Assembly (NCBI GenBank): GCA_018822105.1
Contig: JAHJLB010000011.1
Coordinates: 62,001 to 126,000 of the forward strand
Reading direction: 5' to 3'
Source: Pseudomonadota bacterium
GTDB lineage: Bacteria > Desulfobacterota > Desulfovibrionia > Desulfovibrionales > Desulfovibrionaceae
DNA: 64,000 bases
Shown here piece after piece: positions 1,467-20,356 of the stretch (position 1 is the stretch's first letter; each line of letters opens with the position of its first letter). The notes under the pieces were generated by a model, which did not search any database, was not told the DNA's origin, and saw nothing but the letters and a program-made list of their open reading frames with translations. The position numbers and the translations under genes are program-made.

Positions 1467-2122
1467 GCACGGCCGCCGCCATGCCGACCATCCGGCCCCG
1501 GCTCGAGCTGTCGCTGTCCTATGACCAGGGCGCGATCCAGGCGGACCTTGCCGCCCTGTCCAGGGTGGCCGATGGCGAGCGCAAGGCGCTGTCCCGCGCC
1601 ATCAATAAGGCCCTGAACGGCACCCGCACCGACATCGTGGCCGACCTGCGCAGCCGCACCGTGCTCAAGGCCGGGACCATCCGCAAGGGCATCTTCGTGC
1701 GCACGGCCTGGTGGAAGTCGCACACGCAGTGCAACGGCATCGTGCGCGTGTCGACCAGCCGCCTGCCCCTCACGGAGTACAAGATCACGCCGCTGCGCCA
1801 GACGGCCCAAAAGCGCCGCCTGCCTGCGCAGTACAAGCACGTCAGCTACCGCCTTTCGCAAGGCGGAAAGAGCTTCGGCAATGAGGCCCAGGTGGACGGA
1901 CGCTCAAGGCTCTTCACCGTCCGGGGTGCCAAGTCCGGCAAGCTCGGCGTCTACTCGCGCCTGGGCGCTGGCCGCCTGCCCATCCTCGCCGAGACCGGCC
2001 CCAGCCTCCAGGCCTTCTACGCCCGCACCAGCAGGCAACAGCACATCATGAACGCGGCCGACGCCCGCTTCCGCAAGGAGCTGCGCCACCAGGTGGCCCA
2101 CCTGGCCGGAGGTGGCCGGTGA
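1463..2122 (+). CDS. Phage minor tail protein Z-like
   Basis: The 219-residue protein resembles the gpZ/minor tail protein Z family. It has an N-terminal helical stretch rich in AALSR..ADGERKALSRAINK, then a basic beta-rich part, and a C-terminal helix ending near a His/Lys/Arg-rich tail. In lambdoid phages gpZ helps complete the tail tip for DNA passage. The start overlaps the Rz stop as ATGA and the stop overlaps the next gene's GTG, so it lies in a tightly coupled operon between lysis and tail-completion genes. The family match was read by eye. Confidence 0.65.
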   Translation: MSTAAAMPTIRPRLELSLSYDQGAIQADLAALSRVADGERKALSRAINKALNGTRTDIVADLRSRTVLKAGTIRKGIFVRTAWWKSHTQCNGIVRVSTSRLPLTEYKITPLRQTAQKRRLPAQYKHVSYRLSQGGKSFGNEAQVDGRSRLFTVRGAKSGKLGVYSRLGAGRLPILAETGPSLQAFYARTSRQQHIMNAADARFRKELRHQVAHLAGGGR

Positions 2123-2478
2123 CCGACCTCCTCTCCGTCATGGCCACAGACCTCACCGCCCTGTTCGAGCTGGGCGGGCTCACCATTCCGGTGACCTACG
2201 TCCCGGCGGCGGAGCCGGACGCCGACCCGGACGCCGAGCCGCCCGCCCCGGTGGAGCTGGTCGGCATGTTCGACGAGGCCTACCAGGAAGTGGACCCGCA
2301 CTCGCGCATGCCCATCGGCAGCACCGGCCCGGCCGTGCACCTGCGCAGCGCGGACCTCCCGGCCTACCCGGCAGAGGCCGACCGCCTGGTCATCAAGGGC
2401 CGCACCTTCCGCATCGTGCTGCCCAAGCCCGACGGCGAGGGCATGACCACCTTCCTGCTGCAGGAGGTGACCGCGTGA
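2119..2478 (+). CDS. Phage head-tail joining-like protein
   Basis: The 119-residue protein starts at a GTG that overlaps the upstream stop. A helical N-terminus (about 1-20) is followed by beta-rich sequence with a long acidic/Pro-rich insertion (about 33-48) and a closing GRTFRIVLPKPDGEGMTTF stretch. Size, fold style and position fit small head-tail joining or attachment proteins of siphoviruses and myoviruses. No diagnostic catalytic motif is expected or seen. It is coupled on both sides by four-base overlaps. The specific role is inferred from order: connector genes precede sheath and tube genes. Confidence 0.5.
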   Translation: MTDLLSVMATDLTALFELGGLTIPVTYVPAAEPDADPDAEPPAPVELVGMFDEAYQEVDPHSRMPIGSTGPAVHLRSADLPAYPAEADRLVIKGRTFRIVLPKPDGEGMTTFLLQEVTA

Positions 2479-3032
2479 GCCCCGCGCCCGTGGCCAAGCA
2501 CCCGCGCCAGCTCATCCGCGAGGCCGTGGTGGAGCTGCTCACCGGCGCAACCGACGCTGGCGCCCGGGTCTGGGCCTCGCGCATGCGCCACGTCAGCTCG
2601 CGCGACCTCCCGGCCATCGGCGTCTACACCACGGAGGAGTCCTCTCCCCTGGCCGATGTCTCGCCCCGCAAGTACGAGCGCACCGTCACCGTGGCTGTGG
2701 ACTGCATGGTGGAGGCCGACGAGAGCGTGGACGACGCCCTGGACGCCCTGGCCATGCAGGTGGAGACCGCGCTCATGGCCGACCCCACCCTGGGCGGGGC
2801 CGCCCTGGACAGCGCCCTCATGCGCACCAGCATCGGGCTGGTGGGCGAGGGCCGCACCCAGGCTGGCTGCGCCACCCTGGAGTTCGAGGCCGACTACGAG
2901 ACCTCGCCCGGCCTGGTGGACCTGGACAGCCTGGACGATTTCGCCACCGCTGGCGTCGATTATGACCTGGCCCCGGCCGACGGCACGCCGGAGGTGCAGG
3001 ACGTGGTGACGATCTTCACGCCCGACCCCTAG
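2475..3032 (+). CDS. Phage tail-completion/terminator-like protein
   Basis: The 185-residue protein begins at a GTG overlapping the previous stop. It has a helical start (IREAVVELLTG), a central beta-alpha core with two long acidic segments (around EADESVDDALDALAMQVE), and an acidic Pro/Asp C-terminus. Length, acidity and location just before the gp38-like and sheath genes fit a tail terminator or minor tail U-type protein, which occupies this position in Mu-like phages. After the TAG stop the same frame continues with Pro-Glu-Pro-Asp codons to a second TAG, so the tail may once have been longer. Function is inferred from synteny. Confidence 0.5.
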   Translation: MSPAPVAKHPRQLIREAVVELLTGATDAGARVWASRMRHVSSRDLPAIGVYTTEESSPLADVSPRKYERTVTVAVDCMVEADESVDDALDALAMQVETALMADPTLGGAALDSALMRTSIGLVGEGRTQAGCATLEFEADYETSPGLVDLDSLDDFATAGVDYDLAPADGTPEVQDVVTIFTPDP

Positions 3033-3085
3033 CCGGAGCCTGACCCCGAGCCCTAGCGCAACCCACATTTCAGGAGGAACAGCCC

Positions 3086-3298
3086 ATGCCCGAGATCATC
3101 TTCGTCAAGCCCGCGCCCGGCCTTGTCGTGCGCGACCCCGTGACCAAGGAGCCCCTGCCGCCCCAGGGCGCGCGCAAGGAGAAGAGCACGCACTGGCTGC
3201 GCCGCAAGGCCGCTGGCGACGTGGAGTTCCTGCCGCTGGCCCCGGTGCCCGCCCCCGCCAAAACCAAGCCCGCCGCCCAGGCGGCCCCGAAGGAGTAG
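3086..3298 (+). CDS. Mu gp38-like protein (DUF2635 type)
   Basis: The 70-residue protein has the typical opening of this small family: a short beta stretch with VKPAPGLVVRDP, then LPPQG and a polar STHWLRRKAAGDV segment. The C-terminus is Ala/Pro/Lys-rich. In Mu and Mu-like prophages a protein of this size always sits directly upstream of the tail sheath, as here. Its molecular role is not established. A good ribosome-binding site, AGGAGGAAC, lies seven bases before the ATG, after a 53-base gap that may carry the entry point for tail-gene translation. Confidence 0.75.
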   Translation: MPEIIFVKPAPGLVVRDPVTKEPLPPQGARKEKSTHWLRRKAAGDVEFLPLAPVPAPAKTKPAAQAAPKE

Positions 3299-3301
3299 CC
3301 C

Positions 3302-4765
3302 ATGGCCATCAGCTTCAACGAGATCCCCGCCGCCCTGCGTGTGCCCTTCGTGTTCGCGGAGTTCGACAGCTCCAACGCCCTGGGCGCGGCCGCCCTCATG
3401 CCGTTCAAGGTGCTGGTCTGCGGGCAGAAGCTCGCCACCGGCACCCAGGCCGAGCTTACCCCCGTGCGCATCACCAGCGCCGAGCAGGCCGCCACGCTCT
3501 TCGGCGCCGGGTCCATGCTGGCCCAGGCCCTGGCCATGTACCTGGAGAACGACGCCATGACCGAGGTCTGGGGCATCGCCGTGGACGACCTCGCCGCCGG
3601 GGTCAAGGCCACGGGCGCCCTCACCGTCACCGGCGCGGCCACGGAGAGCGGCACCCTCGCCCTCTACGTCGGCGGCCGCAGGATCCGCGTGGCCGTCACC
3701 AGCGGCGACCAGCCCACTGCCATCGCCACGGCCATCGCCGCCGCCGTCAACGCCGCGACCGACAGCCCCTGCACCGCAACCTCGAACGCGGGCGTGGTCA
3801 CCCTCTCCGCCCAGCACAAGGGCGAGGCGGGCAACGGCATCGACCTGCGGCTCAACTACTACAGCGAGAGCACCCCGGCGGGCGTGGCCGTGGCCATTGT
3901 GGCCATGAGCGGCGGCACCGGCAACCCGGACGCGGACGAGGTCATCGCCGCCATGGCCGACACGCAGTACCACGTCATCTGCTGGCCCTGGACCGACACC
4001 GCCAGCCTGGTGGCCATCGAGGCCGAGCTGCTCGACCGCAGCGGCCCCCTGCGCATGATCGAGGGCCAGGCCATCGCCAGCGCCGTGGGCACCCACGGCA
4101 CCCTGGGCACCCTGGGCGACAGCCGCAACAGCCCGCACCTCACCATCATGCACGCCCACGGCGTGCCCACCCCCACCTGGGAGCTGGCCGCCGCCGTGAC
4201 CGCCGTGGCCGCTTTCTACGGCAACATCGATCCAGCGCGGCCCTTCCAGACCCTGCCGCTCTCCGGCGTGCTGCCCCCGGCCGAGGCCGACCGCTTCACC
4301 ATGAGCGAGAACAACCTGCTGCTCTTCGACGGCATCAGCACCTTTACCGTGGACGCGGGCGGCGTGGTGCGCGTGCAGCGGCTCATCACCACCTACAAGA
4401 CCAACGCCGCCGGGGCCGACGATGCGGCCTACCTGGACCTGAACACCCCGCTGACGCTCTCCTACCTGCGGCACAGCTTCCGGGGCTACATCCTGCGCAA
4501 GTACCCGCGCCACAAGCTGGCCGACGACGGCAACAACTTCGGCCCCGGCCAGGCCGTCATGACGCCCAAGCTGGGCAAGGCCGAGGCCATTGCCTGGGCG
4601 CGCGCCATGGAGAACCTGGGCCTCATGGAGAACATCGACGCCTTTGGCGCGGCCGTGCTCTGCGAGCGCAACGCCACCGACCGCAACCGCCTGGACTGGA
4701 TGCTGCCCACCGACCTGGTCAACCAGTTCGTGGTCGGCGCGGTCAAGATCAGCTTCATCCTCTAG
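3302..4765 (+). CDS. Contractile tail sheath protein (Mu L-like)
   Basis: The 487-residue protein is the contractile sheath subunit that surrounds the tail tube and shortens on infection. The N-terminus (ISFNEIPAALRVPFVFAEFDSS) and C-terminus (LPTDLVNQFVVGAVKISFIL) match the style of Mu-like sheath proteins. In those, the N- and C-terminal arms lace neighbouring subunits together. A Gly/Thr/Val-rich insertion domain occupies about residues 105-200. Its presence, followed by the tube gene, shows the prophage encodes a myovirus tail. The length is usual for the family. Confidence 0.92.
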   Translation: MAISFNEIPAALRVPFVFAEFDSSNALGAAALMPFKVLVCGQKLATGTQAELTPVRITSAEQAATLFGAGSMLAQALAMYLENDAMTEVWGIAVDDLAAGVKATGALTVTGAATESGTLALYVGGRRIRVAVTSGDQPTAIATAIAAAVNAATDSPCTATSNAGVVTLSAQHKGEAGNGIDLRLNYYSESTPAGVAVAIVAMSGGTGNPDADEVIAAMADTQYHVICWPWTDTASLVAIEAELLDRSGPLRMIEGQAIASAVGTHGTLGTLGDSRNSPHLTIMHAHGVPTPTWELAAAVTAVAAFYGNIDPARPFQTLPLSGVLPPAEADRFTMSENNLLLFDGISTFTVDAGGVVRVQRLITTYKTNAAGADDAAYLDLNTPLTLSYLRHSFRGYILRKYPRHKLADDGNNFGPGQAVMTPKLGKAEAIAWARAMENLGLMENIDAFGAAVLCERNATDRNRLDWMLPTDLVNQFVVGAVKISFIL

Positions 4766-4794: not shown

Positions 4795-5157
4795 ATGGCT
4801 GGCAACAAAAGGGCCGGGACCCTCTACCTCAAGATCGACGGCGTCCAGCGCGAGGCCAAGGGCGAATTCACCTACGACATCGGCGGCGAGAAGCGGGAGG
4901 CCATCGTTGGCGCGGACACTGTCCACGGCTACAAGACCGCGCCCAGGGTGCCCTTCATCGAGGGCGCCATAACCGACAGCAAGGAGCTGAACCTCAAGAC
5001 CCTCCAGGGCCTGGACGGCGTCACCGTGACCCTGGAGCTGGCCAACGGCAAGACCATCGTCCTGTCCAACGCCTGGTTCGCGGGCGAGGGCACGGTCAAG
5101 ACCGGCGAGGCGGAGATCCCCGTGCGCTTCGAGGCCGCCAAGGGCGAGGAGAGCTAG
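4795..5157 (+). CDS. Tail tube protein (Mu-like)
   Basis: The 120-residue protein forms stacked hexameric rings of the inner tail tube. It is predicted to be all-beta, opening with AGTLYLKIDGVQREAKGEF and including the KTAPRVPFIEGAITDS turn typical of Mu-like tube proteins. It starts 29 bases after the sheath stop with a clear AAGGAG site. It is followed one base later by the tail assembly chaperone gene. The sheath-tube-chaperone-tape order is the conserved myovirus arrangement and strongly supports the call. Confidence 0.9.
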   Translation: MAGNKRAGTLYLKIDGVQREAKGEFTYDIGGEKREAIVGADTVHGYKTAPRVPFIEGAITDSKELNLKTLQGLDGVTVTLELANGKTIVLSNAWFAGEGTVKTGEAEIPVRFEAAKGEES

Positions 5158-5158
5158 G

Positions 5159-5440
5159 ATGGAGGCGAAAACCGTCACCCTCTCCACGCCGGTCAAGCAC
5201 GGCGAAGAGGAGATTACCAAGCTCGTATTCACCCGCGAGCCCAAGGCCAAGGACATGGACGGCATCCCCATCGGCGGGCAGCTCTATGGTGAGCACATGA
5301 CAAAGATGATCTCTCGTCTCACCGGCTATCCCCCTTCCGTCATCGGCGAGATCGGGCTGGGGGACTTCATGAGATGCGGCGAGGTGGTGGGCGATTTTTT
5401 GTCGCCTGGCCCGCAGACTGGAAGCGGGCCTGCGGACTGA
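5159..5440 (+). CDS. Tail assembly chaperone, short (zero-frame) product
   Basis: This is the 93-residue zero-frame product of the gene between tube and tape measure. In Mu (gp41) and P2 (E) this position holds the tail assembly chaperone that coats the tape measure during assembly. The first about 80 residues are the likely folded domain, with beta-rich VTLSTPVKHG and TKLVFTREPKAKDM and then helices. Residues after about 81 (SPGPQTGSGPAD) lie beyond the slippery site and look like non-structural read-out. The ATG at 5159 immediately follows the tube stop. The normal partner is the longer frameshifted product. Confidence 0.82.
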   Translation: MEAKTVTLSTPVKHGEEEITKLVFTREPKAKDMDGIPIGGQLYGEHMTKMISRLTGYPPSVIGEIGLGDFMRCGEVVGDFLSPGPQTGSGPAD

Positions 5441-5538
5441 TAGCCCGCGAGCTGCACTTCGGCGCGGCCGAGATCATGGACATGGGCGTTGACGAGCTGG
5501 CCTGGTGGCTGGAGCGCATCGCCGAGTTGAACGAATAA
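5159..5538 (+). CDS. Tail assembly chaperone, -1 frameshifted long product
   Basis: A -1 shift at the T TTT TTG heptamer (5395-5401) would join the first 81 codons to a 45-codon extension that ends at the TAA at 5536-5538, giving about 126 residues. The extension reads as real protein: VAWPADWKRACGLIARELHF, then GAAEIMDMGVDELAWWLERI and AELNE. It is helix-forming with a Trp-Trp pair, quite unlike the zero-frame tail. This matches the P2 E/E' and lambda G/GT paradigm, where both products are needed in a fixed ratio. The tape measure gene begins 14 bases after the extension stops. Confidence 0.85.
5395..5430 (+). promoter_or_regulatory. Programmed -1 ribosomal frameshift signal
   Basis: The slippery heptamer T TTT TTG lies in the correct zero-frame register (GAT TTT TTG) at 5395-5401. 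A six-base spacer follows, then a perfect seven-base-pair hairpin: GGCCCGC at 5408-5414 pairs with GCGGGCC at 5424-5430 around a nine-base loop. The heptamer is the one described for the P2 E/E' shift. Heptamer, spacing and stem are exactly those of canonical bacterial -1 frameshift sites. Confidence 0.87.
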
Positions 5539-5551
5539 TGAGGGGCGCACA

Positions 5552-7165
5552 ATGAGCATGGGCCAGCGCGGCATCAGCTTCGTCATCGGCGCGGTGGACA
5601 AGTTCTCCGCGCCCCTGGCCGCCTTCAACGCCAAGATGGCCGAGAGCACGGCCGGACTGCGCCTGTTGCGTGCCCGCATGGGCAACCTGGGGCGCGAATC
5701 CGGCCTCTCGCGCCTCATGGGCGGCAGCGCTGGCATCGGCCGTGGCTTTGGCAACGTCGCGGCGGAGGCCACTGCCCTGGGCAGCAAGCTGGCCCTCGTC
5801 GGCGGCGGCCTGGGCTACGGCTTCAAGAAGGGCTTTGTGGACGTGGCCAGCCAGTTCGAGAAGTTCGAGACCATCTTGACCACCTTGAACATGGGCGACA
5901 CGGCCAAGAGCAAGGAGGAGCTGGGCTGGATCTCCGACTTTGCGGCCAAGACGCCCTACGAACTAGCCGAGGTCACCGAGGCCTTCGTGCAGCTGCGCAG
6001 CTTCGGGCTCGAGCCCACCAATGGCCTGCTGCAGACCCTGGGCGACACCTCCTCGGCCATGGGCAAGCCGCTCAAGCAGGCCGTGGAAGCCATCGCCGAC
6101 GCCGTGACCGGCGAGAACGAGCGCCTCAAGGAGTTCGGCATCGTCGCCAAGAAGACCGGCGGCAACATCGTTTACGAGTACACCAACGCCGCCGGAGCCC
6201 AGGCCAAGATGATGGCCAAGGCCAACGACCGCGCCGCCATCCAGGCCACGCTCACCAAGGTCTGGGCCGAGAAGTACGGCGGCGGCATGGAGCGCCTGTC
6301 CAAGACCTTCGGAGGCATGTGGTCCAATGCCATGGACTCCTGGTCCCGCTTCGCCACCAAGCTCATGAACAACGGGGCCTTTGACTGGATGAAGGCCAAG
6401 CTCGGCGGGATCCTCGAGACCATCGACCGCATGAGCGCCGACGGCAGCCTGGACTCCTGGGCCAAGCAGTGGGGCGAACGGCTCACCATGTTTCTGGAGC
6501 GCGCCTGGGAGGCGGGCAAGGGCTTCGCCTCCGCCCTGGCCGTCATCGGCACCGGGCTGGCCTGGACGGCGGACCTGCTGGGCGGCTGGGAAAACCTGGG
6601 CATCGCCGTGGCCAGCCTCATGGGCCTCAAGCTCGTGGTGGCTGTGGGGCTGCTGGCCAAGTCCTTCATCGTCCTGGGCGCGGCCATAATGACCACGCCC
6701 ATCGGCTGGGTGCTGGCGGGCCTCACTGCCATCACCGTGGGCATCATGGCCATCTGGAAGAACTGGGACAAGATCATGGGCTGGATCAAGGAGAAGACGC
6801 CCAAGTGGATACTGCGCATGTTCGGCGCGGACGAGGGCGGCGCGGCCCCGGCCGGAGCGGGCGCTGCCACAGCGCAACAGCAGAACGGCCTGCGCAACCT
6901 GCAACTGCCCGAGCTGGCCGGTTGGGAGCGCGCGCGTTCCGGCGCCTTCGACGCCCCGCAGGGCTGGGAAGTGGGGGCGCGTAGCCTGGGCGCGGCCAAC
7001 GTGCAGCGCCAGATCAACGAGTCGCGCTCCTCCAGCATCTCCAGGTCCGAGAGCAAAGTCACCGTGGACTTCGCAGGCGTCCCGAAGGGCACTTCCATCC
7101 GCACGGAGGGCGCTCCTGTGGACACCGGCGTCACCTGGGCCATGGGTCCGGCAATGGCCTACTAG
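5552..7165 (+). CDS. Tail tape measure protein
   Basis: The 537-residue protein has the usual tape measure layout. The N-terminus (FVIGAVDKFSAPLAAFNAKM) is followed by a Gly/Ala-rich helical part, then the conserved FEKFETILTTL...ISDFAAKTPYEL region with EAFVQLRSFGLEP. Hydrophobic helices lie at about 345-425, and a polar C-terminus (SRSSSISRSES) contacts the baseplate. The protein sets tail length. Using the general rule of about 1.5 angstrom per residue, a tail of roughly 80 nm would be expected, which is short for a myovirus. It follows the chaperone gene, as is standard. Confidence 0.9.
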   Translation: MSMGQRGISFVIGAVDKFSAPLAAFNAKMAESTAGLRLLRARMGNLGRESGLSRLMGGSAGIGRGFGNVAAEATALGSKLALVGGGLGYGFKKGFVDVASQFEKFETILTTLNMGDTAKSKEELGWISDFAAKTPYELAEVTEAFVQLRSFGLEPTNGLLQTLGDTSSAMGKPLKQAVEAIADAVTGENERLKEFGIVAKKTGGNIVYEYTNAAGAQAKMMAKANDRAAIQATLTKVWAEKYGGGMERLSKTFGGMWSNAMDSWSRFATKLMNNGAFDWMKAKLGGILETIDRMSADGSLDSWAKQWGERLTMFLERAWEAGKGFASALAVIGTGLAWTADLLGGWENLGIAVASLMGLKLVVAVGLLAKSFIVLGAAIMTTPIGWVLAGLTAITVGIMAIWKNWDKIMGWIKEKTPKWILRMFGADEGGAAPAGAGAATAQQQNGLRNLQLPELAGWERARSGAFDAPQGWEVGARSLGAANVQRQINESRSSSISRSESKVTVDFAGVPKGTSIRTEGAPVDTGVTWAMGPAMAY

Positions 7166-13050: not shown

Positions 13051-14154
13051 ATGGCCACCCGGCGCTATCCTCCGCCCGAAGAGGGCTACCCGCTGAAGCT
13101 GTTCGGCGGCCGGGTGCCCAAGGCGGCGCTGTTCGGCCAGGAGCTTACCCTGTGGGGCGACGGCACCTATTCCGGCAACGTGGTCCAAGGCGGCGTCACC
13201 CTCCAGCCCCAGGTCTACAACCTGGCTGGCGTGGGCCTGCTCGCCAACTGCATCGTGGTCACTGGCGAGGCCACGGTCGCGCCCAATGCGGAGACCGGGG
13301 CCAGCGTGGTCATGGGCCAGAACCTCGTGGTCATCGGGGCCTCGGCCAGCCTGAAGCCCAGCACCAATTCCAAGGGCCTCATCCTGCTGTTCAACAAGGG
13401 GGTTTACGCGCGCGACGGCGGCAAGATGAGCACGGACAAGCTGGGCAAGGGCGGAAACTACGGCAACCTAACGGCCCATGACTTGGCTCCGGCAGTGTTG
13501 CGGGCCAAGATTAAGAAGACCGCCCATGACGCCTACGTAGTACAGGGCGAGGGCGCGGCCGGAGCGGCAGCACAGCCCAGCGTGAACACCACCGGGTACA
13601 CCGGAGCCGCTGGCGCGGCGATGCAGTCGGGCGGCGGCGGAAGCGGTTGCCACGCGGGGCCTGGGACCGACCCCGGCGGCAAGGGCGGCCCATGCGCCGG
13701 TGGCGCTGGCTCCACAGGCACCCCGTATTCCGCCTCTGGCACCCGTATCGCGCCAGAGCCCTACGGCGGCAAAGGCGGGTGGTTCAACGGCACCTGCTCC
13801 GGGGCCTCTGGTGGTGGAGCGGGCGACCCCATCGGGCCGGGCACGGCAGGGGTTGTTACGCCCGCCAGCGGCGCGGGTGGTGGACTGCTCATGCTGTTTT
13901 CCCCAACCGTCAGCATTGCCTCCGGGTGTGTAATGTCCTCCGATGGTGGTCGCGGCGGCTCCGACGCAGCGTACGGATACCCCGGCGCGGGTGCCGGAGG
14001 CGGCATCGTGTGCATCGTCACCAAGGCCGGCGGCTATAGCAACAACGGCACTGTCCGGGCCAGCGGCGGTCTGGGCGGGCTAAACTACGGGAACAACCCC
14101 CCATGTACAGGCGGCTCTGGTGGGGCTGGCTCTGTGAACACCTTCACGGTCTAG
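13051..14154 (+). CDS. Glycine-rich tail fibre adhesin (gp38-like polyglycine type)
   Basis: The 367-residue protein has an N-terminal domain (about residues 1-170) with beta-helical character: GVTLQPQVYNLAGVGLL, NCIVVTGEATVAPNAETG and MGQNLVVIGASASLKPSTN. A long glycine-rich half follows, with blocks such as GGGGSGCHAGPG, GGKGGPCAGGAG, GGKGGWFNG and GGRGGSDAAYGYPGAGAGGG. These resemble the polyglycine-II sandwiches of T-even gp38-type receptor adhesins, in which Gly blocks build the core and variable loops bind the host. It is the likely receptor-binding protein. The two Cys pairs in the Gly region are unusual. Confidence 0.72.
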   Translation: MATRRYPPPEEGYPLKLFGGRVPKAALFGQELTLWGDGTYSGNVVQGGVTLQPQVYNLAGVGLLANCIVVTGEATVAPNAETGASVVMGQNLVVIGASASLKPSTNSKGLILLFNKGVYARDGGKMSTDKLGKGGNYGNLTAHDLAPAVLRAKIKKTAHDAYVVQGEGAAGAAAQPSVNTTGYTGAAGAAMQSGGGGSGCHAGPGTDPGGKGGPCAGGAGSTGTPYSASGTRIAPEPYGGKGGWFNGTCSGASGGGAGDPIGPGTAGVVTPASGAGGGLLMLFSPTVSIASGCVMSSDGGRGGSDAAYGYPGAGAGGGIVCIVTKAGGYSNNGTVRASGGLGGLNYGNNPPCTGGSGGAGSVNTFTV

Positions 14155-14163
14155 GAGGACTGC

Positions 14164-14493
14164 ATGATTCTGTTGCATCATCCCGAAGTTGAGCTGTCGC
14201 GCGAGCTGCTGGCCGCGCTGCCCGAGGGCGTAGACGTCATCGATTGCTCCCTGGCGATCCCCGACAACATGGTCCCCGAATACCCGGTTTCGGCCTTCCC
14301 GAGCGTCGTGGTGGACGTGCCCGCCTACACGGAGAACCGCCCGCTCTTTGCCGAGGACGGCAGCTTCCTGGGTATGGAGCGGGTGACGGTCCAGGCACGC
14401 CAGGAGCCCGTGCGCATGCCCGCCAGTTGGGCGGCGGTGGATGGCTATGTGGAGTACGTCGCCGCGCGCGCGGCGGCCAACCCGCCGGAGTAG
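14164..14493 (+). CDS. Small phage protein after fibre gene, possible fibre assembly helper
   Basis: The 109-residue protein opens with hydrophobic beta/alpha segments (MILLHHPEVELSRELLAALP, then VDVIDCSLAIPD). It contains a Pro-rich FPSVVVDVPAYTENRPLF stretch and ends in a helix. A GGAGG lies before the ATG. Fibre assembly chaperones often follow the adhesin gene, and size and position would fit, but no signature is recognised. Its function is unknown. Confidence 0.55.
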   Translation: MILLHHPEVELSRELLAALPEGVDVIDCSLAIPDNMVPEYPVSAFPSVVVDVPAYTENRPLFAEDGSFLGMERVTVQARQEPVRMPASWAAVDGYVEYVAARAAANPPE

Positions 14494-14712: not shown

Positions 14713-14726
14713 GCCTGGCCAGGTGG

Positions 14727-14767
14727 AAAAGAAGGGGCCCCGGTGGTGTGCCGGGGCCCCTTCTTTT
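14727..14767. terminator. Strong bidirectional intrinsic terminator between tail operon and lysogenic operon
   Basis: A perfect 17-base-pair inverted repeat (14727-14743 with 14751-14767) with a seven-base loop has a G+C-rich core flanked by AAAAGAA and TTCTTTT. It therefore supplies a U-run in both directions. It separates the rightward tail genes from the leftward cargo genes, which converge on it. Confidence 0.93.
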
Positions 14768-14775
14768 CGGTCTGT

Positions 14776-15252
14776 TTACAGGCCGAGGAATTCGCGCAAG
14801 TTAAGGTGGCGAATGCAGTAAATGAGCAGCAGCACATAAGGGACGGAGACGGCTGCCGGTATGAAACGCTCGACGGTGGTGTGTTTGACGTAGACCTTCC
14901 AGTTATTCCCGCGCTCGAGCTTGTCCCACTCGATATCCCATGGCGAGACGGGGAGCTTCTTCTCCAGTTCGTGGACCACCTTCCACTTTGCGGAGTTAAG
15001 CTGCTTCGCGGAGAAGATGTTGAACCACCAAATGGCGCAGACGATGAGGCCCAGGAGCGCGGCCAGTGTCAGTATGGCAAGGCGGTCTTGGCTGCAGAGG
15101 TTTTGACTTGCGGACAAACTCAACGCGGCAAACATGCCCGACAAAGCTGTCGAATAAAACTGATTTGACGTGATTCGGCGCTGGCTGACCCTGTCAGCCA
15201 TTTCGACATAAAGCTTGTATTGCTCAAAAAGAATTTCGTTTTCGTCTTTCAT
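14776..15252 (-). CDS. RipA-like small membrane protein, predicted effector of a TIR two-gene system
   Basis: The 158-residue protein has an N-terminal amphipathic helix with the pattern EQYKLYVEMADRVSQRR. Three hydrophobic segments follow, at about residues 33-50, 58-80 and 134-152, with a charged cytoplasmic stretch (KWKVVHELEKKLPVSPWDIE) between the second and third. This style recalls RipA-family octameric membrane proteins and SLATT-type effectors, some of which accompany nucleotide-signalling or TIR genes. Its ATG overlaps the stop of the TIR gene by ATGA, so the pair is translationally coupled and probably stoichiometric. Inference: it is the membrane-acting arm, triggered by the TIR product. 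The bidirectional terminator follows its stop. Confidence 0.72.
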   Translation of the reverse strand: MKDENEILFEQYKLYVEMADRVSQRRITSNQFYSTALSGMFAALSLSASQNLCSQDRLAILTLAALLGLIVCAIWWFNIFSAKQLNSAKWKVVHELEKKLPVSPWDIEWDKLERGNNWKVYVKHTTVERFIPAAVSVPYVLLLIYCIRHLNLREFLGL

Positions 15253-15656
15253 CGGCAAAGATTCCGTATTGCTGCGACAACAGATTCGGTGTTCCATTTG
15301 ACAATGAGGTCGGCGTTCTGTTTGACGATGGCCGACGTCCTTTCGCTCCCCCAAGGCTCAATGGCCAAAATCGGCTTTGGGAATGCTTTCGCAAGTCCTA
15401 TCTCAATATTGATCCATTTGCTGTGCGTTGCGTAAACCCCAGCGAGGATGATGATGCAACTAGCTGGTGCCATTTGCCGAGCAATTGCATCACGGAGGGC
15501 TTGCTGGTTGGGAGCGTTGTGGATTGGGTCATTCTTTGGAACTGAGTAGTTTCTGAACGGAAAGTACCCGCGCCCATTCAACATACTGACCATTCTGTCA
15601 TACATGTCGGTGTATGCCCAAGAATGGCTTATGAAGAGGTTATACGTTGTCGCCAT
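15249..15656 (-). CDS. TIR-like (ThsB/DUF1863-type) protein
   Basis: The 135-residue protein is a stand-alone TIR-like domain. It opens with NLFISHSWAYTDMYDRMVSM, has the NYSVPKNDPIHN loop, then an IARQMAPASCIIILAGVYAT strand and SKWINIEIGLAK. Glu85 there occupies the position expected for the NADase Glu of TIR enzymes. This is the ThsB/MTH538-like TIR family. In Thoeris, such TIRs sense phage and make an NAD-derived messenger for a separate effector. The gene has a textbook AAGGAGG five bases before the ATG and is coupled by ATGA to the membrane protein. It lies in the repressor-side operon, as expected for a gene expressed in the lysogen. Confidence 0.85.
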   Translation of the reverse strand: MATTYNLFISHSWAYTDMYDRMVSMLNGRGYFPFRNYSVPKNDPIHNAPNQQALRDAIARQMAPASCIIILAGVYATHSKWINIEIGLAKAFPKPILAIEPWGSERTSAIVKQNADLIVKWNTESVVAAIRNLCR

Positions 15657-15673
15657 GTTTCCTCCTTAACGGA

Positions 15674-15748
15674 TCATTTCACCGCCTCAAAATTCGTCCA
15701 CCACCCACTCATCTCGCCCTTGCGCCGGATCTTCACCGTTACGGACAT
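15674..15748 (-). CDS. Possible 24-residue peptide between zinc-ribbon and TIR genes
   Basis: An ATG at 15748, overlapping the last codons of the zinc-ribbon gene in another frame, opens a 24-codon frame ending 17 bases before the TIR start. The peptide (MSVTVKIRRKGEMSG, then WWTNFEAVK) looks protein-like: basic, with a Trp pair. An AAGGCGG lies too close to the ATG to be a good ribosome site. It could be a small gene, a shifted C-terminal extension of the upstream protein, or chance. Confidence 0.25.
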   Translation of the reverse strand: MSVTVKIRRKGEMSGWWTNFEAVK

Positions 15749-16242
15749 TCCGCCTTGCCCAGCTCCACCCAGCCGCTTGCATCGTTGTCGAGCACGTGGA
15801 CAAAGGCCCCATTTATGCCCTCGGCGGCCAGAGCCCCGCAAATGCCTCGCGCGAAGCTGTCAAACGCCCCAGGAACCTTCCCTGCACCATTCACACCGAC
15901 AAGCAGTGAGGGGAGCGACTTGTTGTTCCAGGCCACGCTCAAGACCTTGTCGCGCTTTTTGACTGCGGCCAGCGCGGCCTCAAGTTGCGCTTCTGTGTGA
16001 GTAGTGCGCTGCGGGGAGGCAACGGGTGGAGCGGGAGCCATGGTGGGCGTGGGCTTGCTTGGCAATGTGACGGCGAGGAGGAACAGCCCGGCGAGTACGA
16101 CGCCGCAGGTGATGAGCACACCCCGCAAGAGGAGAGGCAACGCCCGGAACTGGACTCCGATAAGGGACCGTTTGCATATGGGACACTCAAAAATGCCAAA
16201 GCCGACGTTTCTTTTGCAGTCTGGGCAAACACGTTGGGCCAT
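15739..16242 (-). CDS. Zinc-ribbon single-pass membrane protein of prophage cargo region
   Basis: The 167-residue protein begins at the ATG at 16242, chosen because GGGGAGG lies seven bases upstream. It has an N-terminal CxxC-x(9)-CxxC zinc ribbon (VCPDCKRN, then ECPICKRS), a transmembrane helix at about residues 33-55, a Pro/Ala-rich linker, and a C-terminal domain of about 95 residues (VLSVAWNNKSLPSLLVGV, ARGICGALAAEGINGAFVHVLD). Zinc ribbon plus membrane helix plus exported domain is a common sensor layout, but the family is not recognised. It lies between the repressor and the TIR gene on the same strand, 82 bases upstream of the latter, and may be co-transcribed. Confidence 0.72.
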   Translation of the reverse strand: MAQRVCPDCKRNVGFGIFECPICKRSLIGVQFRALPLLLRGVLITCGVVLAGLFLLAVTLPSKPTPTMAPAPPVASPQRTTHTEAQLEAALAAVKKRDKVLSVAWNNKSLPSLLVGVNGAGKVPGAFDSFARGICGALAAEGINGAFVHVLDNDASGWVELGKAECP

Positions 16243-16312
16243 CAGTCGCCTCCCCTCTCGTCCTGTAAGCATCCACTCACTTAAAATCGGACAGTCTTTA
16301 GCCTTGCGCGTG

Positions 16313-16355
16313 CGGTTCCGTCACCCCGGCCGCTGCCAGGGATTAGACGGAACCG
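16313..16355. repeat. Inverted repeat over the repressor stop
   Basis: CGGTTCCGTC at 16313-16322 and GACGGAACCG at 16346-16355 form an exact ten-base inverted repeat across the end of the repressor gene, with a G+C-rich loop. There is no T-run, so an ordinary intrinsic terminator is unlikely. It might act as an attenuator or mRNA stabiliser between the repressor and the cargo genes. Confidence 0.5.
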
Positions 16356-16822
16356 TCCCCGGCAGCTTTCTGCGGGTCGGGATAGGGTGCCGGGTCTTCG
16401 GCTGCCTGGGCAATGTCACCCGGCTTGGGCTCGGCCACGCCGTACCCTCCCCTGGCCCTGGTCAGCTTGGCCATCTCGCCTTCCAGCACGTCGCGCGCGG
16501 CGGCCAGGATCTTCAGCTCGTCCACCCCGGCCTCGCGCATGGTCCGGGCCACCTGGTCGACGCGCTGGGCAATGGGGTCGATCTGTACCTGGGTCTGGCA
16601 AGTATCGTGTCGGTACATTTCGCCGTCACCAGTCAGGAGCCAATGGGCGTTGATACCATAGCTATTTACCCACGATGCCAAGATTTTTTGACTCGGTAGC
16701 GAGTTATCTTTCAGGTAGCTGGTGATGGTCTGGGAAGTGATGCCAGCGACATCCGCGATCTTTTGGTGTGTCGCCCCTAGCTCTTTTATTAAGCTCCGTA
16801 GTCGTTCACTAAATTTTGACAT
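16343..16822 (-). CDS. Prophage repressor, CI-like with Cro/CI helix-turn-helix
   Basis: The 159-residue protein has an N-terminal HTH (about residues 5-60: SERLRSLIKELGATHQKIAD, then ITSQTITSYLKDNSLPSQK) and the SYGINAHWLLTGDGEMYR segment seen in CI-type repressors. A helical region of about 40 residues follows, then a flexible Pro/Ala/Asp tail. There is no S24/LexA-like peptidase domain, so induction would not be by RecA-stimulated self-cleavage; an antirepressor or other route is likely. It is transcribed leftward, away from the early genes, and its start abuts an operator-like region of repeats. Confidence 0.87.
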   Translation of the reverse strand: MSKFSERLRSLIKELGATHQKIADVAGITSQTITSYLKDNSLPSQKILASWVNSYGINAHWLLTGDGEMYRHDTCQTQVQIDPIAQRVDQVARTMREAGVDELKILAAARDVLEGEMAKLTRARGGYGVAEPKPGDIAQAAEDPAPYPDPQKAAGDGSV

Positions 16823-18942: not shown

Positions 18943-19236
18943 ATGCAAGAGCCAACCCCCGCACCAAGTGCCGCCCAGATGGACGCGGCCCTGCGCGAGG
19001 TGCTGCGCGAGCTGCTGGAGCCAGCCGCACGGCTGGAGGCCCTGCGCCGCAAGGAGCTGATCACCGGGCAGGAGGTGGAGGATCTGTACGGCCTTGCCTA
19101 CGGCACTCTGCGCAACTGGCGCGCCAAGGGCCACGGCCCAAAAATGACGCGCATCGGCGCCCTTGTCTACTACAAGCACCAGGACCTGCTGGCTTTCATC
19201 GCGGCGCACCAGGTTAAGACGTATGACCAGCAGTAG
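18943..19236 (+). CDS. Excisionase-like HTH protein
   Basis: The 97-residue protein has a C-terminal HTH_17/excisionase-type domain. It reads LITGQEVEDLYGLAYGTLRN, then WRAKGHGPKMTRIGALVYYK and DLLAFIAAH. An N-terminal helix precedes it (MDAALREVLRELLEPAARLE). Excisionases of this class bend DNA at attachment sites and direct the integrase toward excision. Its 3' end overlaps the convergent integrase gene by 23 bases, a typical int-xis relationship. Confidence 0.78.
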   Translation: MQEPTPAPSAAQMDAALREVLRELLEPAARLEALRRKELITGQEVEDLYGLAYGTLRNWRAKGHGPKMTRIGALVYYKHQDLLAFIAAHQVKTYDQQ

Positions 19237-20356
19237 CCTCGTGCGACAGGAGCCGCTCGATATGCTCCGTGGCCTCTTTCCCCTGGGCGGGGCAGAGGCT
19301 CGCATAGCGCTTGGTCATGTCGATGGACCTGTGGCCCATGAGGTCCATGAGCTGGTACAGCGGCACGCCGCTCATGGCCAGCAGGCTCGCAAAGGTGTGG
19401 CGCAGGGTGTGGAACACCACCCGGCCGCGCCTGTCCGCAACGCCCTTGTTAAACTTCAACTCCTCCACCACGCGGGAGAAGGTGTCCGAGATTTCTTTGC
19501 GCACGCCGTTGCGGCCAGCGAAGACCAGGCCGTGGCGCTCCGTGCCCGTGGCCAACAGCATGGCCACCACGCTGGTGGTGAGGGAGACTGTGCGGCTGCG
19601 CCCGTTCTTGGGGTCCAGCACCTGGGCCACGCGGGCGCTCATGTTCACTGCCTCCCAGCGCAGGCCCAGCACTTCGCCCAAGCGCATCCCCGTATACAGG
19701 CTCATGAGGCTTATGCGCCAGGTATCCAGGGAGCGCGCCTTGAGCGTCTCCAGCAGCAGGTCCGCCTCCTCAACGGAGAGGAACCGAAAGCGTTTGTTGT
19801 CCACGTGGGGCATCACGCGCTTCTGGACGGGGTTCGTCCCGCTCCACAGCCGCATGGCGATGGCGTGGTTGACCACCCGGCGCAAGAGGGCCAGGCAGTG
19901 CTTCACGGTTTGCGGGCTCAAGCCCTTTGCGGCCAGGGACTCCTTGAGCCGCTCCAATTCGAGCGGAGAGAGGGAGGCGATGGTTTGGGCACCCATATGC
20001 GCCAGGTGCAGGTCCCATCGGCTCTTGTCCGTGCCGGGGCGCTTGGTCTTGGCCAGGTGCCCCTGGTAGGCCTCCCAGGCACCGCCTATGGTCAGCTCCG
20101 GGCGCCGCTTGTCCAGGATCGCAGAGGGCAGATCCCCATGCCGAACTGTGCGCACGCGCTCGGCGCGGATCTGACTGGCCATGGCCGCCGTGTAGCCCTC
20201 GCTCCTCCAGCCGACCTTTTCCCAGACCTTGCGTCCAGGCCCATTGTAGGCGATGTCGAAGCACACATCAGGCTTGCCGTCGTGCTTCCTGTCAGGACTC
20301 TGGCGCATGTAAACGCCCGGGTACTTCGTCAGCTCACGCTTGCCTGCACCGGCCAT
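19214..20356 (-). CDS. int: Prophage tyrosine integrase
   Basis: The 380-residue tyrosine recombinase has an arm-binding N-terminus, a SAM-like core-binding domain (about residues 90-175) and a catalytic domain with all expected residues. These are Arg225 (TGMRLGE), Lys250 (DPKNGRSR), His316 and Arg319 (HTLRHTFAS), His342 (GHRS) and the nucleophile Tyr351 (KRYASL). It integrates and excises the prophage at the tRNA-Arg site that begins about 160 bases upstream of its start. Three repeats of TGCTACC overlap its leader. Confidence 0.95.
   Translation of the reverse strand: MAGAGKRELTKYPGVYMRQSPDRKHDGKPDVCFDIAYNGPGRKVWEKVGWRSEGYTAAMASQIRAERVRTVRHGDLPSAILDKRRPELTIGGAWEAYQGHLAKTKRPGTDKSRWDLHLAHMGAQTIASLSPLELERLKESLAAKGLSPQTVKHCLALLRRVVNHAIAMRLWSGTNPVQKRVMPHVDNKRFRFLSVEEADLLLETLKARSLDTWRISLMSLYTGMRLGEVLGLRWEAVNMSARVAQVLDPKNGRSRTVSLTTSVVAMLLATGTERHGLVFAGRNGVRKEISDTFSRVVEELKFNKGVADRRGRVVFHTLRHTFASLLAMSGVPLYQLMDLMGHRSIDMTKRYASLCPAQGKEATEHIERLLSHEATAGHTS

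Follow-up and report, generated by a model that had tools for sequence, protein, structure and literature searches.

A prophage-borne TIR–8xMP gene pair as a candidate Thoeris-like defence module, with caspase-like proteins as alternative partners of the same TIR clade

Introduction

What is the function of a two-gene unit that encodes a TIR-domain protein and a small membrane protein and lies behind the repressor of a prophage? We addressed this question for a gene pair found in the window, i.e., the whole stretch of 64,000 nucleotides that was analysed. Our preferred reading, to which we assign a probability of about 0.72, is that the prophage carries the two genes as cargo and that they form a Thoeris-like abortive-infection module, in which a signal made by the TIR protein would trigger a membrane breach by its partner, a protein of the 8xMP family. 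Defence activity, the signal and its identity, the oligomer state and the pore are what we infer in this reading. An initial annotation of the locus had already interpreted the pair as a candidate anti-phage system. Its account of the pairing, the fold and the prophage setting stood, but it had missed that the same TIR clade also has caspase-like partners.

Layout and composition of the gene pair

The TIR-domain gene (ThsB_TIR family, 135 aa; 15249–15656, minus strand) encodes the proposed sensor and signal-making enzyme. It is followed on the same strand by the gene of the proposed membrane effector, an 8xMP protein of 158 aa with three long helices (14776–15252), and both open reading frames are intact in the window. 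The stop codon of the TIR gene and the start codon of the 8xMP gene overlap in the four bases ATGA (15249–15252, minus strand), as had been described before. The single strong ribosome-binding site formerly ascribed to the pair could be read directly from the sequence as AAGGAGG at 15667–15661 (minus strand), 5′ of the ATG of the TIR gene. Reading of the region upstream of the 8xMP gene revealed no ribosome site comparable to this one, and translational coupling of the 8xMP gene to the TIR gene is therefore likely. An alternative upstream TTG start would result in a 192-aa version of the 8xMP protein; since the 8xMP profile begins at residue 9 of the 158-aa form, the ATG start is favoured.

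Just 3′ of the 8xMP gene, between it and the convergent late (tail) genes, lies a long terminator-like hairpin of 20 pairs with a T tail (14726–14768, no strand assigned), which stands out by its length alone, as a terminator scan found three sites compared to a mean of 3.2 in shuffled sequences. The G+C content of the pair (49.5% and 52.8%) is lower than that of the tail-gene region (71.2%), in agreement with the initial annotation, and the window as a whole has 66.2%.

The TIR protein

The TIR protein was assigned by its matches to Pfam ThsB_TIR (PF08937; E = 1.1e-16, 61.5 bits at a cut-off of 21.2), to the ThsB profile of PADLOC (1.1e-12) and to PHROG 6988, a family of unknown function (1.8e-37). 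Its predicted structure (pLDDT 86.5, pTM 0.82) was aligned best by VIA with the B. cereus TIR 8fz9 (Z 14.7, rmsd 3.0, 126 residues). Tied with this hit within 1 Z unit were the 2′-deoxyribosyltransferase 7o62 (Z 14.3), ThsB 6lhy (Z 14.0, rmsd 2.1, 113 residues) and EcThsB 8wcf (Z 13.7, rmsd 2.5, 127 residues). In Foldseek, the top hits were DNPH1 nucleoside hydrolases (E 2.2e-6), with EcThsB in 13th place. Because DNPH1 ranks above ThsB in Foldseek and a deoxyribosyltransferase ties in VIA, the fold alone is no proof of NADase chemistry. The predicted fold is that of the TIR/deoxyribosyltransferase class, and the label TIR rests on the family profiles.

Glu85, which we take to be the catalytic glutamate position, is invariant in all 47 aligned TIR relatives and is kept in 53 of 53 8xMP-linked as well as 35 of 35 caspase-linked TIR rows. 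In a weak profile match (E 0.033), its column is aligned with a glutamate of 8fz9. Thus, the two features on which the earlier assignment depended, a TIR fold matching solved ThsB proteins and the glutamate, are present.

The 8xMP protein

Profile scans at E ≤ 1 gave no match to a SIR2-SLOG or macro domain in either protein. This bears out the earlier statement that such an effector is missing and that the partner is a 158-residue membrane protein, whose sole Pfam match at E ≤ 1 is 8xMP (PF24838, “octameric membrane protein family”; 126.6 bits at a cut-off of 30, E = 7.8e-37). All 41 members of the 8xMP alignment A2 match PF24838 at E ≤ 1. A single-sequence search found no 8xMP protein in viral contigs, and alignment A2 reached seven; in phage records, no relative was detected at E ≤ 1e-3.

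The predicted structure of the 8xMP protein (pLDDT 93.7, pTM 0.82) consists of two long helices of 46 and 44 residues (4–49 and 54–97), one short helix (104–111) and a third long helix (124–149). We read the helices as three membrane segments, the first two long helices as a hairpin, and the inner halves of these together with the loop 98–123 as facing the cytosol. Seven residues (R26, N30, W75, K89, E97, E108 and E128) are invariant in the 41 aligned 8xMP sequences and also in a larger alignment of 56 rows, which holds 55 8xMP sequences including the near-copies L037, L038 and L040. All of them except W75 have polar or charged side chains, and by the reading of the model given above these would lie at or near the cytosolic side.

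Several known folds and families were considered for the 8xMP protein. Comparison with PDB gave chance-level sequence matches only (E 0.13 and above) and no profile match up to E 1. A known solved fold was dismissed, the best Foldseek hit having an E-value of 0.75. BAG domain, ZnT7 and ClyA were rejected as likenesses, with VIA Z values of 10.3 and below, i.e., under the noise level of the tool for helical bundles. Membership in SLATT was discarded at the level of sequence profiles, as neither Pfam nor NCBIfam gave a SLATT match for the window protein at E ≤ 1; for other 8xMP members this exclusion applies among the 25 of 58 families listed. A nucleotide-binding domain common to 8xMP and caspase effectors was sought with hhalign and none was found.

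Conservation of the TIR–8xMP pairing

In order to place the pair in a wider context, relatives of the TIR protein were gathered with alignment A1 from a collection in which each of 84,980 species is represented by a single genome. The search confirmed 317 TIR relatives, and the neighbours of the best 80 of these 317 loci were classed with purpose-built HMMs. An 8xMP gene lies within 4 kb of the TIR gene in 46 of these 80 loci, in 44 of them on the same strand. Most same-strand 8xMP genes (38/44) are no more than 150 bp away from the TIR gene, 24 after and 14 before it, and four of the other six loci have a second TIR gene in between. The two 8xMP genes on the opposite strand belong to L068 and L099. 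A caspase-like gene on the same strand was found in 28 of the 80 TIR loci, 23 of these within 150 bp. The ratio of 46:28 is no census, A1 having been seeded with nine TIRs, six 8xMP-linked and three caspase-linked. In one locus of the 80 (L107 3992–4963, Alicyclobacillus fastidiosus), a TIR of the main clade is followed by a SLATT_1/DUF4231 protein. No partner was seen in five of the 80 loci, namely L042 and L101, whose TIRs are near contig ends, and L071, L091 and L103.

Two loci combine the components differently. In Anaerobium acetethylicum, a caspase-like gene, a second TIR gene, an 8xMP gene and a main-clade TIR gene form one cluster (L083 1668–4405), which holds both effectors and is counted among the 44 same-strand 8xMP loci. 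In L104, an ORF of 314 aa (4955–5899) joins a weak TIR-like N-terminal part (TIR_2, E = 0.0033, below the cut-off) to 8xMP.

The 46 8xMP loci are distributed over 18 phylum labels and the 28 caspase loci over eight. Thus, the two genes are conserved together in other genomes, which the initial annotation had made a touchstone of its proposal. The pair also occurs in the viral contigs L114 and L115, and a TIR gene directly precedes an 8xMP gene on plasmids of Polaromonas, Novosphingobium and the archaeon Haladaptatus. In Polaromonas and Novosphingobium, the plasmid TIR is a remoter member of ThsB_TIR (E 5.1e-7 and 3.1e-6). ThsB-like TIRs of this more distant kind have an 8xMP partner in L018, L020 and L166–L169 (plasmids and viral contigs), and the viral-contig TIRs of L167, L168 and L169, when scanned, match ThsB_TIR.

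The 8xMP protein might instead be a general housekeeping or stress membrane protein that happens to lie beside a TIR gene and has no direct part in signalling. This possibility can be weighed with 395 genomes sampled evenly from the phylum. In this sample, 19 8xMP rows including the window's own were over the cut-off; 17 others were examined, and 14 of these 17 loci have no such TIR gene within 1.5 kb (the reverse pairing was found in only 3), as would be expected of a general protein. The 8xMP family is indeed broader than the TIR–8xMP system. Nevertheless, the three best-scoring 8xMP matches in the phylum sample are all TIR-linked, and the pairing recurs in both gene orders and under 18 phylum labels, which makes a mere bystander very improbable. 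The same sample contained seven genomes with a TIR match. An 8xMP gene adjoins the TIR gene in the window and in three others of these seven, and a caspase gene does so in one. The remaining two TIRs are weaker matches with neither partner detected by HMM within 1.5 kb. As a control, we searched 24 loci (95.7 kb) that had been retrieved for unrelated purposes; no 8xMP, caspase or TIR gene was found outside L117, the window's own locus, which is part of that set.

Among 8xMP loci without TIR (L003, L004, L006, L007, L014, L017, L140 and, in part, L141–L152), no common alternative partner was recognised by eye. In L004 and L014 (G044), the 8xMP gene directly follows a gene that by eye resembles WD40 repeats, and no TIR was seen. 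8xMP may serve sensors other than TIR.

Exchange of partners within one TIR clade

A tree was calculated from 95 TIRs and 137 columns, in which many forks are unresolved. L018 and L020, as more distant TIRs, and L027, which is the window again, were not part of it. When the partner labels 8xMP and caspase are mapped on this tree, parsimony requires 15 changes, at least four of which are forced by starred branches. Two starred pairs of sister TIRs have different partners, L079/L087 and L096/L099, the 8xMP gene of L099 being on the opposite strand. A model in which the 51 8xMP-linked rows form one clade as opposed to the 35 caspase-linked rows was rejected (p-AU 0.0128). For this AU test, which was performed with knowledge of the first tree, 86 rows were used; rows without a partner, with both effectors or with SLATT were set aside, as were two rows on long branches. 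As 8xMP and caspase partners interleave on the tree, we conclude that one TIR clade exchanges effectors. Nevertheless, this exchange is not free, since the partner labels group on the tree more tightly than after shuffling (0/500 shuffles as low).

Identity between TIRs of the two partner classes reaches 78%, as between those of L066 (caspase) and L081 (8xMP), and 26 near-invariant positions, including Glu85, are common to both classes. Positions 52 and 2 of the TIR separate the partner classes beyond 200 label shuffles, which ignore kinship, and position 2 is part of a ragged N-terminus. Based on such class-separating positions, the products of 8xMP- and caspase-linked TIRs may differ. Concerning the other partner class, the two caspase-like proteins that were scanned match Peptidase_C14, and H90 and C140 (numbering of L022), presumably the catalytic pair, are kept in 36 of 36 caspase-like proteins collected.

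The exchange also bears on the question which of the two proteins is the killer. The TIR itself could be an NADase that kills by depleting NAD+, with 8xMP serving at the membrane as its sensor, anchor or brake. Such direct action is open to bacterial TIRs according to the available text of PMC12847820, and a conserved neighbourhood is compatible with any obligate partnership. However, in other loci of this TIR clade the place of 8xMP is taken by a caspase-like protein in which H90 and C140 are retained throughout, and a protease or a SLATT protein in that position fits an effector better than a brake. We therefore consider a TIR acting as the killer to be improbable and prefer 8xMP as the effector. 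The substitution is the argument for this role: next to the same TIR clade stands a protease, which is an effector (PMC12847820), or once SLATT, a predicted effector (PMC9503650), as far as the available parts of both papers describe them.

The prophage setting

On the minus strand, the pair is preceded by the prophage repressor gene heading the leftward run (16343–16822; HTH_19 2e-10, Phage_CI_repr 1.3e-5, PHROG transcriptional repressor 7.2e-13) and by a gene for a protein with a Zn-ribbon and one TM segment (15739–16272), so that the order is repressor, Zn-ribbon/one-TM, TIR and 8xMP. Beyond the repressor follow a CII-like activator, an excisionase-like gene and the integrase (19214–20356, minus strand; PF00589, 8.9e-28); on the other side of the pair are a DksA-like zinc-finger gene and a baseplate gene. 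Of the leftward operon formerly proposed to start with the repressor, gene order and strand were found as described, and these suggest, rather than establish, a single operon. An attachment tRNA was not detected in the window by ARAGORN.

A DNA search of 59 relatives revealed related prophage pieces in the same genus. Genes similar to the Zn-ribbon/one-TM gene are present in sister prophages without the pair; we conclude that this gene is a resident of the prophage family and not part of the pair, its label and the likeness of the sister genes being judged by eye and by a common strip. This conserved strip (15673–15736, minus strand) marks the edge of the cargo slot and corresponds to the 3′ end of the Zn-ribbon gene in the sister prophages. 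In the window, a stop codon cuts the Zn-ribbon gene short of its conserved C-terminus, the coding sequence for which is still present at 15673–15740, just ahead of the TIR gene, but in a different frame; this suggests either a frameshift or a seam left by recombination.

The strip is 94% identical over 64 bp in G005:C69 and 80–82% identical over 65 bp in two contigs of G009; an exact 21-mer of it also occurs in the viral contig L177. The slot behind it varies. In G005:C69, a 62-aa ORF comes after the strip in place of the TIR–8xMP pair, and L177 encodes this protein as well (98% identity), again behind the strip. G009:C27 has an ORF of 207 aa at the slot (L175, reverse complement 1963–2586) and G009:C52 an ORF of 199 aa about 400 bases past the strip (L174, reverse complement 5776–6375). 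Both are without a PADLOC match and are possible further cargo genes. In addition, G009:C52 carries a SIR2 gene (L174 3524–4552) and a HerA gene (1826–3520) on the minus strand between repressor and strip, beside the slot and not exactly inside it (PADLOC SIR2 2.7e-39 and HerA 3.5e-152; Pfam SIR2_2 and DUF87). SIR2 with HerA is listed as an anti-phage combination in the available part of PMC9122126. Thus, the repressor-headed stretch varies and holds a SIR2–HerA defence pair in one relative, which supports the view, already taken in the initial annotation, of defence genes carried by the prophage.

A position behind the repressor is also what one would expect if the pair served the upkeep of the prophage, be it by superinfection exclusion at the membrane or by a toxin-antitoxin-like addiction with the TIR signal as a switch, and the sister prophages carry other small proteins in the slot that by eye are membrane-anchored. 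However, copies of the pair are also found on plasmids, some of them archaeal; a restriction gene adjoins one plasmid copy, and another TIR gene together with a HEPN gene adjoins a second. Prophage upkeep is accordingly an explanation we would give little credence, and defence carried by the prophage remains our preferred reading.

Elsewhere in the same genome, the locus G000:C28 (L176) is 74% identical to window positions 13270–14440, from the end of a glycine-rich gene onward, and is probably another prophage.

Proposed mechanism

In the mechanism we propose, the pair would be expressed in the lysogen, probably so given its position, and the TIR protein would sense an infecting phage. It would then convert NAD+ into an ADP-ribose signal, most plausibly N7-cADPR. 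This signal would bind the cytosolic part of an 8xMP assembly, which in turn would open or disrupt the inner membrane, and phage growth would stop. N7-cADPR appears most plausible since the same TIR clade also serves TIR–caspase systems. This argument is weaker than that for the effector, because a few residues may change the product of a TIR and because distant TIRs also use 8xMP. As more distant ThsB-like TIRs are paired with 8xMP as well, the signal may differ from N7-cADPR in some systems. Against this mechanism stands that 8xMP has no recognised ligand-binding domain and that hhalign found no domain in common with the caspase effectors.

CBASS swaps effectors on common nucleotide signals. 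A comparable arrangement, in which one TIR clade and one messenger, probably N7-cADPR, act as a hub for interchangeable effectors (caspase-like protease, 8xMP and SLATT), is a tentative proposal that we hold at somewhat less than even odds. If this hub exists, the 8xMP family would include a new ligand-gated bacterial death channel, with the invariant residues R26, N30, K89, E97, E108 and E128 as its sensing and gating site, and TIR–caspase immunity would be one branch of a wider effector-swapping system. Among the closest TIRs, the membrane branch (46/80) would be no rarer than the protease branch (28/80), although these numbers are no census. Furthermore, the 8xMP family would gain a function, and a defined ligand and testable residues would be at hand for a small death channel. 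Phage proteins sequestering the type IV signal would be predicted to block 8xMP systems, too.

Comparison with known systems

The open-licence literature was searched for precedents. Neither a description of the TIR–8xMP pair or its exchange with caspases nor an assay of any TIR–8xMP pair was found there, and the term “8xMP” led to unrelated papers only. The idea of a prophage TIR combined with a membrane effector is not new, judging from the available parts of PMC9503650 and PMC9122126. Type III Thoeris is named once, without description, in the accessible text of PMC12390725; a description of its make-up was not found in the open-licence literature, and the TIR–8xMP pair could be this type.

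Two reports of 2022 come close to the pair. In Firmicutes phages, TIR genes are paired with SLATT proteins, predicted permeability effectors, sometimes together with an HTH gene (PMC9503650, available part). Common to both cases is a phage-borne TIR beside a small predicted membrane-permeability effector, whereas the partner in the window matches 8xMP, and SLATT replaces 8xMP in L107. The P2-like phage AC1 carries a TIR with transmembrane proteins, and the cloned genes protected E. coli (PMC9122126, available part). This system resembles ours in that a TIR with transmembrane partners occupies a prophage hotspot, but it comprises three genes as far as that text describes it. In the phage collection there was no 8xMP match and the only record matching the window TIR is a Salmonella one, and the AC1 proteins therefore look different from the pair in the window.

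Type I Thoeris (ThsB and the SIR2-SLOG protein ThsA) shares with the pair the ThsB-type TIR, the model of which matches 6lhy; in contrast, the 8xMP partner has no SIR2 or SLOG domain. Type II Thoeris consists of ThsB and a ThsA with TM and macro domains, uses His-ADPR and has an effector proposed to perturb the membrane, according to the available parts of PMC11204291 and PMC12847820. A TIR combined with a proposed membrane-acting effector is thus a common feature, but 8xMP is smaller, with three long helices, and has no macro or known ligand domain.

Type IV Thoeris combines a TIR, a caspase-like protease and the signal N7-cADPR (PMC12847820, available part). The TIR–caspase loci found here were identified as type IV by this published description, as far as it is available, and not by its sequences. 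Type IV shares the two-gene layout with the pair, and the TIRs of TIR–caspase loci interleave with those of TIR–8xMP loci. In contrast to type IV, no caspase-like gene is located beside the window TIR (locus L027), and its proposed effector is no protease but the 8xMP membrane protein.
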